A stretch of 9,783 nucleotides of DNA from Clostridia bacterium (GTDB lineage: Bacteria; Bacillota_A; Clostridia; Oscillospirales; CAG-272), in the NCBI GenBank assembly GCA_017472105.1, contig JAFUQY010000358.1, forward strand, positions 1 through 9,783. The letters run 5' to 3'. Below the pieces are notes generated by a model. It did not search any database. It saw nothing but the letters and a program-made list of their open reading frames with translations, and had not been told where the DNA came from. The position numbers and the translations under genes are program-made. Each line of letters starts with the position of its first letter. Position 1 is the first letter of the stretch. Of this stretch, positions 306 through 9,783 are shown in pieces.

Positions 306-446
306 CGTAGGGGACGGCGCCCTCGACGTCCCGCGGGTTAAATAAAACAATATTTAGGCAGATGAAATATCAATCCAATTCCATCCGGCATAAATCGTTC
401 GGCGGGACTGTCTGACCACTTTCTGTGAAAGTGAACGTCCCCTACG
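306..446. repeat. GTAGGG-headed palindromic element (element D)
   Basis: The ends are an 11-bp perfect inverted repeat: CGTAGGGGACG at 306-316 and its complement at 436-446. The left end also forms a compact hairpin, GGGACG (311-316) with CGTCCC (327-332) around a 10-nt loop. A second internal pair is GTCCCGC (328-334) with GCGGGAC (402-408). The AT-rich centre (335-400) shows no gene. The left hairpin is related to the one inside the YwlE-RimI gene at 6113-6138, with covarying stem bases. It occupies the gap between yfcE and the terminator of the upstream transcript. Confidence 0.7.
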
Positions 447-4081: not shown

Positions 4082-4166
4082 GGAGGTTTTACAACAGAGG
4101 TTTTCAACAGCCTGTGGAAAAGTGGGTTGGATAAATGCACAACTTGTTTCGCAGAGACAAACGCCT

Positions 4167-4240
4167 CGTAGGGCGGGGGTTTACCTCCCGCCGTGAATTT
4201 CGGTTGTACTTTGCGGCGGGAGGTGAACTCCCGCCCTACG
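4167..4240. repeat. Long hairpin, 27-bp stem (element C)
   Basis: Arms 4167-4193 and 4214-4240 are reverse complements except at two positions. Both exceptions read as G-T wobble pairs when the plus strand is transcribed, so that RNA would pair over all 27 bp around a 20-nt loop. Each arm begins CGTAGGGCGGG and carries its own small CGGGRG/CTCCCG hairpin. It lies just after tsaD on the minus strand and may slow or end that transcript, although no T run follows the stem on that strand. Confidence 0.8.
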
Positions 4241-4295
4241 GAGATTGAAGATACCTGCCTCGCAGTGAGAGTTATCGAACATGTCTCATTCTTCC

Positions 4296-5482: not shown

Positions 5483-5603
5483 ATCTCTGTCATTCTGAGG
5501 GTGAAAATCACCGGTAATCAAAGCCGTACGCCGTGCACAGATTCATCGGGCAGGATGTCGGGTATGTGTCTGTGGGATAGCCCGCCCTCTGAATGACAGG
5601 GAT
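5483..5603. repeat. 121-bp inverted-repeat element (element A2), short relative of A1
   Basis: The ends 5483-5501 and 5585-5603 are 19-bp inverted repeats with two mismatches, built on TGTCATTCWGAGGG. The right half (about 5534-5603) matches the reverse complement of the A1 left arm, including the CACAGATTCNTCGGGCAGGA core and AGCCCGCCCTCTGAATGACA. The left 45 bases match the reverse complement of the A1 right end (TGAAAATCAC and CCGTAC blocks). A2 therefore looks like A1 with about 200 central bases missing. It fills most of the rimI-tsaD gap. Confidence 0.8.
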
Positions 5604-5657: not shown

Positions 5658-6554
5658 TCATTCATTACGCATTGTGCATTTCATTAAAATCGCATCTTCA
5701 ACGGGCTTCTGATAATATCCCTTCCGCTTGCCGAGGACTTCGAAGCCGTACTTTTCGTAAAGATGCCGTGCCGGGGCGTTGGATTCGCGGACTTCGAGGA
5801 AAATTTCCTCCGCTCCGAGGGATGCCGCCCTCTCCAGTACCGCGTCCATGAGGGATGAGCCGATTCCCTGAGAGCGGTAAGCGTCGTCAACTGCAATGTT
5901 CATCAGCTCCGCATCCGGGGCAATGCACATCAGGCACGCGAATCCGGCGAGGGTATCCCCGTCAAGTGCCGCGAAAACGCTGACCTTGTCCGATTGGAAC
6001 GCGCTCTCAAAGGTCTTCTTCGACCACGGAACGGTGAACGCACGCAGCTCCAGCGCGGCAATGCCGTCAATCATGTCAGGCGTCGCGTCAATGATCTTCA
6101 ATCCATACCGTTGTAGGGACAGGCGTCCCCGACTGTCCTCCGAACAATCTGCACCAAATAACATCTCCAATGCCGCCTCAATGTCCGAAAGACACGCGCG
6201 GTACAGGATGAGATCCCCGCCGAAGGGGTCGGAAATGGGCAGGGGCATGGGCACGATTTTCTCCGCGAACTGCGGGAGCGCGTCCCGGATGATCTTCGCG
6301 TGCGCCGGCGTGACCGTGACAACGAGATCCGCATCCGCGATATCTTCTGCCGTCAGCGGGAGGGAAGCACGGTTCTCGTCCGCGTCAAATCCGCGTTCTC
6401 TCAGGGCAGTCACCGCGTTATGTGAGATGAGCGAGCCGTCGGCAGCCAGTCCCCGGGAATCCGCGTGAAGACCGTATTTTGCCGAAGCCACGGACGCACA
6501 CATCGGCGAGCGGCAGGTGTTGCCCGTGCAGACAAAGAGAACCTTATCCCACAT
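5658..6554 (-). CDS. Fusion of YwlE-type protein-arginine phosphatase and RimI N-acetyltransferase
   Basis: A 298-residue two-domain protein. Residues 1-135 are a low-molecular-weight phosphatase: P-loop C9-TGNTC-R15-S16 near the N-terminus and the general-acid loop D109-PFGG. T13 in CTGNTCRS and DPFGG match Bacillus YwlE, where that threonine selects phosphoarginine over phosphotyrosine, so an arginine phosphatase is the better call. Residues 151-298 are a GNAT enzyme of the RimI type, with PWS (176-178), acetyl-CoA motif RSQGIG (227-232), LEVRESN with E254, and LYEKYGF with Y266. RimI acetylates the N-terminal alanine of ribosomal protein S18. Residues 138-148 between the domains are encoded by a palindromic repeat. 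The ATG at 6554 overlaps the lipoprotein stop by 11 nt without a clear Shine-Dalgarno, implying coupled translation; an upstream extension to 6692 is a shadow frame. A TTG at about residue 152 could separately start RimI. Confidence 0.88.
   Translation of the reverse strand: MWDKVLFVCTGNTCRSPMCASVASAKYGLHADSRGLAADGSLISHNAVTALRERGFDADENRASLPLTAEDIADADLVVTVTPAHAKIIRDALPQFAEKIVPMPLPISDPFGGDLILYRACLSDIEAALEMLFGADCSEDSRGRLSLQRYGLKIIDATPDMIDGIAALELRAFTVPWSKKTFESAFQSDKVSVFAALDGDTLAGFACLMCIAPDAELMNIAVDDAYRSQGIGSSLMDAVLERAASLGAEEIFLEVRESNAPARHLYEKYGFEVLGKRKGYYQKPVEDAILMKCTMRNE
5664..5684. repeat. Short heptanucleotide repeat in the 3' end of the fusion gene
   Basis: Plus-strand units ATTACGC, ATTGTGC and ATTTCAT follow each other at a period of 7. 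They encode the last codons of the RimI domain on the minus strand (MKCTMRN), with the stop just beyond. Three units only, so this is modest evidence taken alone. Confidence 0.45.
6113..6142. repeat. Palindromic repeat inside the YwlE-RimI coding sequence
   Basis: GTAGGG heads a hairpin, GGACAG (6117-6122) with CTGTCC (6133-6138), around the 10-nt loop GCGTCCCCGA. The intergenic element at 307-332 has the same head, a loop differing at two positions, and three stem pairs changed on both sides at once. Read on the minus strand it encodes about S138-Q148 (SEDSRGRLSLQ), exactly the linker between the two domains. Thirty bases is ten codons, so it keeps the frame. Confidence 0.75.
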
Positions 6555-7223: not shown

Positions 7224-7541
7224 GCCTCATCCGTGGTGCACGCCTCATCCGTCACGGATTTTCAATCCGCGCCACCTTCCCCACCGCGTTTGTGAAGCTG
7301 TAATCTTTCATCCGTACAGGGGAAGGCTTATTCAGTTTCACGTCCCGCAGCATCGCCGGATGAGAACGGAAAATCCGGATGAATCCGCACTGCATCTCCG
7401 TAGGACTGCGGGAGCATCAATCAAAGAAGCCTTCCCCGTGCAGTCGCTTAAAATTTCGGCTTCAAAAACACAGCCGGGGAAGGTGCCCCATAGGGGCGGA
7501 TGAGGCGTGAACCCGGATAGAGGCGCGAACCCGGATGAAGC
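7224..7541. repeat. Nested inverted-repeat element (element B)
   Basis: About 318 bases made of two inverted arms. Pairs are CACGCCTCATCCG (7239-7251) with 7497-7509, CACCTTCCCC (7273-7282) with 7476-7485, GTTTGTGAAGC (7288-7298) with 7459-7469 (one mismatch), GGGGAAGGCTT (7319-7329) with 7427-7437, and CCCGCAG (7344-7350) with 7406-7412. Each arm is itself a hairpin, since CCTTCCCC and GGGGAAGG occur within it. The outer 18-base unit is duplicated at both ends (GCCTCATCCGT at 7224 and 7242; GAACCCGGAT at 7510 and 7528). It lies between the dCMP deaminase and lipoprotein genes. No gene is apparent in it. Confidence 0.8.
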
Positions 7542-8122: not shown

Positions 8123-8239
8123 AGTGAAGAGAGAAGAGTGAAAAGAGAAGAGAAAAGGTAGAAACCTTCGGTTTCAATGAATTAAAACGCGGAGCGTTTT
8201 TTCCGATTCTCTTCACTCTTCTCTCTTATCTCTTATCTC
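8123..8239. repeat. Heptamer-built palindrome with two inner mini-hairpins (element E)
   Basis: The left arm is five 7-mers: AGTGAAG, AGAGAAG, AGTGAAA, AGAGAAG, AGAAAAG (8123-8157). The right arm is CTCTTCA, CTCTTCT, CTCTTAT, CTCTTAT, CTC (8209-8239). Across the arms AAGAGAGAAGAGTGAA (8127-8142) pairs perfectly with 8212-8227. Between them lie two tight hairpins, GAAACC-TTC-GGTTTC (8161-8175) and AAAACGC-GGA-GCGTTTT (8184-8200). The second is followed by two further T's, so it looks terminator-like on the plus strand. The element occupies the divergent gap between the dCMP deaminase and flippase genes; I found no clear plus-strand promoter there. Confidence 0.8.
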
Positions 8240-8256: not shown

Positions 8257-9783
8257 ATGTCAGCCAGAACAACTTTATTCCTCAAAAACGCTCTCCTGCT
8301 GTCCGCCGTGAGTCTTGCCATGCGCGGGGTCAGCGTGGGCTTCAATGCATGGGTCAACGGAAAAATCGGCGCGGAGAGCATGGGACTGTTCACGCTTGTC
8401 ATGAGCGTCTACGGTTTCGCCGTCACATTGGCTCTCGCGTGCGTGAATCTCGCGTCGGTGCGGCTTACGTCACAGCGGTGCGCTCTGCTGGATCATGCGG
8501 ACAAAGCGTCGTGGAAGTACGCGATGGGAAGGGTGCTCCGTGCGGTCTGCCTGTACGCGCTCCTCTTCGGCGTCTCCTCAGCCGTACTGCTCTACGCGTC
8601 ATCCGGTTTGGCGGCAGAATATCTCCTGCGCGACATGCGGACGGTGAAATCCCTGAAAATCCTCGCCCTGAGCCTGCCCGCGATTGCACTGTCCTCCGCA
8701 CTTTCCGGATTTTTCACAGGACTCCGCAAAGCCGCAAAGAACGCCGCCGTCGCCGTCACGGAGCAGCTCTGCAAAATCGCCGTCACTTCCACTGCGCTCG
8801 TCATGGTGCTCCCGGGAACGGTCGAAAACGCATGCCTCGCCGTCGTCGGAGGATCCGCAGTCTCCGAAGCATGGTCGCTCATCTGGAACGCCGTCCTCTG
8901 TCTCACCGACTCGAAAAAGCCGTCGGATATGGCGTTCGGCACAAACTCCGTCCGGCTGAATACCACGTTCCGCGAGGCCGTGGAGATCGCACTGCCGTCA
9001 GCGGTCGGAGCATGCGCGCGCCAGGGACTCACCACCCTCGAGCACCTCGCAATCCCCGTCGGACTCGGGAAAAGCGGACTCGGCAGGGAAGCCGCACTCG
9101 CATCGTACGGACTGCTTCAGGGCATCGCGTTCCCGCTGGTCATGTTCCCGTACGCCGTCATCGGATCGTTCACGTCCCTCCTGATCCCGGAAATGGCGGA
9201 ACGTCACGCGCTCGGCGATAAAACCGGCATCGCAAGCCTTACCGAAAAGGTGTACCGGGTATCCGCGATGTTCTCCGTCGGCGCGTGCGGAATCTTCGCC
9301 TGCTTTGCACCGGAGCTGGGTGAGATCGTCTATTCCTCCCGTGAAGCGGCGGCGTACACCTTACAGCTCGGTCTGCTCGTGCCGTTCATGTACCTCGATA
9401 CCGCAGTCGACGCGCTTCTCAAGGGATTGGGCGAGCAGGTCTACACCATGAAGGTCAACACGGCCGACGCCGCATGCGGACTGCTCCTCGTCATTCTGCT
9501 CACTCCGGTCATGGGGATCTACGGCTACATCCTCTGCATCTGGCTGTGCGAAATCGGGAATCTGTGGGCAAGCATCGCACGGCTCGGGAAAATCACCGGA
9601 GTCGGAATCCCGCACGCCGCCGCGCATTACATCCGTCCCGTTACCGTGTGTCTCATCGCCGCCGCACTCCGGTTCACGTGCATGAAGCATCTGCCGCCGG
9701 TCACAGCGATGGTGCTCTTTGCCGCCGTGTATCTCACCGGAATCCTCGCTGTCCCGGAAAACAAAAAAAGGAACCTGCAAAAA
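8257..9783 (+). CDS. spoVB: SpoVB/MurJ-superfamily lipid-linked oligosaccharide flippase, 3' end cut by window edge
   Basis: An open frame of 509 codons with no stop before the right edge; it encodes a polytopic membrane protein of the MOP flippase superfamily. It begins with the family-like FLKNALLLSAVSLAMRGVSV, then alternates hydrophobic helices, for example at about 96-118, 135-153, 173-188, 289-309, 370-386, 409-435 and 484-500. Features matching SpoVB/YtgP proteins are LIPEMAERHALGD (308-320), KGLGEQVYTMKVN (389-401) and GIYGYILC. Members flip lipid-linked cell-wall or polysaccharide precursors; SpoVB acts in spore cortex synthesis. The basic tail PENKKRNLQK suggests only a few residues are missing. 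The ATG at 8257 follows GAGG by just 4 nt, a short spacing, and element E lies immediately upstream. The subfamily (SpoVB, MurJ-like or capsule exporter) is uncertain, so the symbol is tentative. Confidence 0.8.
   Translation, partial: MSARTTLFLKNALLLSAVSLAMRGVSVGFNAWVNGKIGAESMGLFTLVMSVYGFAVTLALACVNLASVRLTSQRCALLDHADKASWKYAMGRVLRAVCLYALLFGVSSAVLLYASSGLAAEYLLRDMRTVKSLKILALSLPAIALSSALSGFFTGLRKAAKNAAVAVTEQLCKIAVTSTALVMVLPGTVENACLAVVGGSAVSEAWSLIWNAVLCLTDSKKPSDMAFGTNSVRLNTTFREAVEIALPSAVGACARQGLTTLEHLAIPVGLGKSGLGREAALASYGLLQGIAFPLVMFPYAVIGSFTSLLIPEMAERHALGDKTGIASLTEKVYRVSAMFSVGACGIFACFAPELGEIVYSSREAAAYTLQLGLLVPFMYLDTAVDALLKGLGEQVYTMKVNTADAACGLLLVILLTPVMGIYGYILCIWLCEIGNLWASIARLGKITGVGIPHAAAHYIRPVTVCLIAAALRFTCMKHLPPVTAMVLFAAVYLTGILAVPENKKRNLQK

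Follow-up and report, generated by a model that had tools for sequence, protein, structure and literature searches.

The closest described systems are the GTAG-tagged REPs, which combine a 6- to 13-bp stem with an unpaired GTAG at one end and occur as variants with complementary stem changes (Di Nocera et al. 2013, PMC3733652). As portrayed in that survey, these elements exist as single units and head-to-head dimers, and they are mostly intergenic, with some intragenic copies. Its authors consider that REP insertions in flexible linkers or loops may be neutral. The same work counts the intragenic Rickettsia conorii repeats RPE-4 and RPE-6 among CGTC-tagged repeats. On the side of the partner enzymes, the Escherichia coli TnpA_REP recognises the tetranucleotide GTAG and both cuts and rejoins REPs, and frame-keeping REPs inside the transposase gene are presented as a unique feature of TnpA_REP subclass 2.4, also termed RAYT group 4 (Quentin et al. 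2018, PMC6006769).

Here, we analysed a Clostridia contig of 9,783 nucleotides (hereafter the window), in which a single gene (5658-6554, minus strand; 298 amino acids plus stop) joins ywlE to rimI. Pfam LMWPc (PF01451) matches residues 5-133, the YwlE low-molecular-weight phosphatase domain (6156-6542, minus strand), whereas NCBIfam TIGR01575 (rimI) matches residues 163-291, the RimI acetyltransferase domain (5682-6068, minus strand), with 124 bits against a cut-off of 86; Pfam Acetyltransf_1 covers residues 165-271. These two domain limits place a GTAG-tagged hairpin at 6113-6138 (plus strand, antisense to the gene) in the inter-domain joint. The hairpin reads GTAGGGACAGGCGTCCCCGACTGTCC, the gene reads its complement, and the codon map confirms the earlier statement that the repeat keeps the frame, beginning at the third base of codon 139 and ending at the first base of codon 148 (298 codons in all). 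It translates as DSRGRLSL, followed by Q. The unpaired GTAG foot (6113-6116, plus strand) extends into codon 148. By eye, this codon lines up with an internal Met of the homologue P0002, just ahead of the RimI part of that protein, and may be a former rimI start. The earlier note had set the repeat at 6113-6142 and exactly at the domain boundary. The start was right and the end four bases too far, whereas the boundary statement is accurate only in that the YwlE match and the residue aligned by eye with the P0002 Met flank the repeat.

The hairpin at 6113-6138 is real, is a GTAG-type REP, and belongs to the same family as a second copy at 307-332. Both fit one pattern, GTAGGGNNNNGCGYCCYCGNNNNNCC, composed of GTAGGG, a four-base half stem, a GCGYCCYCG loop, the matching half stem, and CC, which occurs twice in the window and never in 1000 dinucleotide shuffles; the earlier assignment of the two repeats to one kind thus stands. 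The in-gene copy is a palindrome within the 6- to 13-bp range that ends on one side in the unpaired GTAG, and its hairpin is also predicted by folding. The window contains four hairpins that have a GTAGGG head and a perfect stem of 6 or more, whereas 300 shuffles average 0.007. A chance hairpin or codon bias, with no mobile element behind it, could be argued from the mere 26 bases involved and from the ease with which weak hairpins form in GC-rich coding DNA. We give this explanation practically no credence, since the shuffles exclude a chance origin and the exact 26 bases recur in at least two copies in genome G103 (contig 79), both outside ORFs of at least 110 aa.

The 307-332 copy (plus strand) lies outside annotated genes and is identical to the commonest form among the matches listed in G017, G052, G107, G276, and G240. 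It faces a second GTAGGGGACG head at 436-445 (minus strand), recognised as an inverted repeat and in the predicted fold, and together the two form a 139-bp head-to-head pair (307-445). At 4168-4239, two more GTAGGG hairpins face each other, differing from the first pair in stem and loop and likewise seen as an inverted repeat; the predicted fold of 4160-4245 reaches -64.5 kcal/mol. Both pairs resemble the head-to-head dimers that GTAG REPs are described as forming (PMC3733652).

The window also holds repeats of other sequence. The family TGTCATTCWGAGGGC lies at 2506-2520, 2804-2818, 5488-5502, and 5584-5598, as two facing pairs of about 310 and 110 bp; its four matches with up to two mismatches compare with a shuffle mean of 0.01, and it looks like another miniature mobile element. 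Facing GCCTCATCCG/CGGATGAGGC repeats (7224-7251 and 7497-7524) stand beside a dCMP deaminase gene and enclose an inner inverted repeat (7319-7350/7406-7437). A further facing pair, AAGAGAGAAGAGTGAAAAGA (8127-8146 and 8208-8227; 95% complementary), precedes the ORF at 8257.

Beyond the window, the REP pattern with at most one mismatch was found 567 times in 45 of the 291 sampled genomes of G001's class, compared with 14 matches to the reversed pattern, and it reaches up to 73 copies per genome in genomes other than that of the window. Stem variants carry complementary changes: among 15 hand-picked variants, 13 pair at every one of the six stem positions and the remaining two at five and three, with two of these pairs fixed by the search pattern itself. 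The places listed in nine of the 45 pattern-positive genomes (111 copies at 80 loci) show that the family resides mostly outside genes, with 89 copies not spanned by any ORF of at least 110 aa. Ten of the 22 spanned copies are in recognised genes, namely eight in four RAYTs and two in LRR_5 proteins. The other 12 are in ORFs that either have no Pfam match at 0.01 (10 copies) or have a match below cut-off (2 copies). Such abundance, inside and outside genes and in other genomes, supports the proposal made earlier that a mobile palindrome was captured in frame. The pattern was also seen in 102 viral-contig stretches, with up to three copies in one (e.g., L131, L142, and L163); these represent either stretches of the host genome or phage-borne REPs.

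The two copies in LRR_5 proteins are further in-frame cases. Both proteins, encoded at L246 (1261-3978) and L310 (1815-4025), combine LRR_5 and CBM77 domains and have their REP-coded peptides between the N-terminus, which is signal-like by eye, and the LRR match. Visual inspection of the L246 translation revealed two tandem REP-coded copies along with further diverged ones. A protein repeat possibly started from a DNA repeat in these two proteins. The YwlE-RimI case points to such further in-frame REP captures in other proteins. The REP can be read through in frame, as only one of its six frames, the one in which the foot reads TAG, is closed and the other five are open. Open frames make in-frame survival of the element easier.

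The REP family is associated with a particular type of transposase. Five divergent Y1 transposases of pattern-positive genomes match NCBIfam REP_Tyr_transpos, a single one above the cut-off and four below. A RAYT profile built from these five transposases matched 31 of the 45 pattern-positive genomes versus 5 of 35 pattern-negative genomes (p = 8e-7); the comparison took in all positives and 35 of the 246 negatives, the first by number except G001. Because the profile derives from five of the positives, the test was run again without them and gave 26 of 40 versus 5 of 35 (p = 7e-6). No RAYT match at 1e-8 was obtained in 14 of the 45 pattern-positive genomes, including G240 (15 copies) and G291 (23 copies). 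Pfam Y1_Tnp overlooks some partner RAYTs, returning no family for L223 and L255, both of which match REP_Tyr_transpos below its cut-off. Plain IS200-type transposases were considered as REP partners and rejected, since strong Y1_Tnp matches also occur in pattern-negative genomes such as G004 and G010, which makes such a partnership unlikely. The GTAGGG hairpin is absent at the plain IS200-type transposases L196-L199, all with strong Y1_Tnp matches, and L194 has a single one, outside the transposase match.

RAYT genes themselves harbor the hairpin. Among the best loci of 30 genomes (L263-L292), 26 have a GTAGGG hairpin within the RAYT open frame, i.e., a REP inside the transposase gene with the frame kept; 19 of these 26 carry in-frame hairpins on both strands, and the other four loci of the 30 have none. 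The in-gene sequence varies between genomes and is different in most, and the pairs of G017 (L223) and G276 (L301) are the 307-332 form or a near copy. Five aligned RAYTs, their motifs read by eye, display NH[IFV]H in four cases, WQ in four, and strict YIxNNP in one. With their in-gene REPs, the RAYTs are likely members of TnpA_REP subclass 2.4, although strict YIxNNP occurs in just one of the five. Our data suggest that a RAYT/REP system is widespread among uncultured Clostridia, with an in-frame repeat in most of the transposase genes examined. A bolder idea is that the REP family of these Clostridia was shaped for translatability, as its five open frames and its in-frame presence, mostly twice, in its own transposase might suggest. 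It would then have served repeatedly as raw material for protein linkers, both where YwlE meets RimI and, in surface-type proteins, ahead of the LRR domain, where REP-derived peptides in tandem have started to diverge. We regard this as speculative and unlikely.

How the repeat relates to the gene fusion can be addressed by comparing relatives. YwlE-RimI fusions are common: 749 of the 7999 candidates scored are homologues at E <= 0.001, and each of the best 120 of them covers at least 93% of the query; their linkers differ in length and sequence. The closest genus compared was found via TsaD (25 genomes, identity up to 78%). None of its 21 tsaD loci has a fused ywlE-rimI gene; ywlE and rimI are separate and adjacent in 10, which implies that a fusion took place, and the remaining 11 (L339, L365-L373, and L375) lack ywlE in the stretch ahead of rimI. 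Gene order at the rimI site is unstable inside one genus. The TsaD search of viral contigs found nothing, and a search of the G434 family for kin of the window turned up none.

As one of two alternatives, the earlier note proposed that the repeat itself caused the fusion. Spelled out, an intergenic REP at a short ywlE/rimI junction would have removed or bypassed the stop and joined the frames, and it would have decayed later in sister lines. The position of the REP between the two former genes is in keeping with this scenario, as are the 10 closest-genus loci with separate neighbors and the ATGA overlap at L363, where a frame-shifting insertion could fuse the genes. We confronted it with a tree of 38 rows built on the two domains, with the linker left out. 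Its rows are the window, 16 homologues out of the 120 listed, and 21 loci at which ywlE is present and separate from rimI. The window and P0001-P0009, all fused, group together, with support of 90/75 that is below the starred level, and this group adjoins L363/L364, where the genes are separate (95/98 for the twelve). The inner nodes unite the window with P0001, P0002, and P0003 (100/99) and then with P0006 (97/94), again with every member fused. Only the window and P0001, which are 99% identical, have the repeat peptide among the ten fused rows. The sister pair P0002/P0003 (70% identity) is fused without it, and so are P0004-P0009, the linkers of P0002-P0009 being judged from protein sequence alone. 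The grouping of all ten fused rows makes a single fusion that preceded the repeat the more economical account. Because close relatives are fused without the hairpin, the REP most likely arrived later. Hairpin-free fusion is common as well, since GTAGGG/CCCTAC is absent from the linkers of all eight fused loci examined (L029, L030, L056, L058, L060, L062, L063, and L064), of which L058 contains GTAGAG. The fused or separate state requires at least five changes on the whole tree, and fusion is therefore labile in general. The tree and the fusions without hairpin rule against a repeat-made fusion as the main reading, and we deem it improbable.

The linker measures 19 residues in the window and P0001 and 17 in P0002/P0003, a net gain of two codons, although a shared, decayed repeat would also account for such close lengths. 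Repeat-free relatives had been expected to show separate genes or a shorter linker. The separate genes do appear at 10 of the 21 closest-genus loci, but P0002-P0009 are fused, and the linker of P0002/P0003 is shorter by just those two residues. An assembly artefact behind the fusion with its repeat might be suspected in a contig of 9.8 kb, but P0001, which is 99% identical and shares the 19-residue linker, was found on a different contig (longest 1363 bases), which renders this possibility very remote. Sister species, sampled as 40 stretches of eight genomes plus the tsaD loci, contain 2 GTAGGG hairpins in 504 kb versus 4 in the 9.8-kb window, and these 504 kb yielded no RAYT match at 1e-5. 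Both observations fit a late arrival of the REP.

We therefore consider it highly probable that a GTAG-tagged REP of the non-autonomous, RAYT-served kind landed, within the window's lineage, in the pre-existing linker of a YwlE-RimI protein that was already fused. A RAYT would have moved a REP copy into the linker after ywlE and rimI had fused, and the newcomer would have been tolerated since the linker is free to vary. A bare 26-base insertion breaks the frame, so the event must have been accompanied by loss or change of neighboring linker bases. The REP-coded peptide is probably a neutral passenger. The mobile-palindrome reading is supported, and gene fusion and mobile-hairpin capture can be ordered on a tree, with the hairpin as the later passenger.

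The REP of the window is like the GTAG REPs of PMC3733652 in its GTAG end, stem, variants, dimers, and some intragenic copies. The elements of that account come from eight phyla, chiefly Proteobacteria, and "clostridi" has no occurrence in its main text, whereas ours reside in Clostridia; a ywlE-rimI target is not known to feature among its intragenic cases. Among the top-ranked results from the open-licence literature, we found no paper on RAYTs or REPs of Clostridia. The RAYTs resemble TnpA_REP subclass 2.4 as described in PMC6006769 in their in-gene REPs and have close HuH and Y motifs. According to that description, the subclass abounds in Cyanobacteria and Bacteroidetes, with scattered occurrences in further phyla, and its in-gene REPs generally lie between HuH and Y, whereas here one often precedes HuH too. 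Rickettsia palindromic elements, to which the repeat had been likened, are small palindromes translated in frame within proteins as well (PMC3733652). The likeness holds for the kind of element and fails for the family, RPE-4 and RPE-6 being CGTC-tagged in that source and the present REP GTAG-tagged. Both REPs that lie in frame within genes and the tolerance of linkers for them are already on record in the two studies (PMC3733652 and PMC6006769). What is new here is a further example, in uncultured Clostridia, together with two more in-frame cases in LRR proteins.
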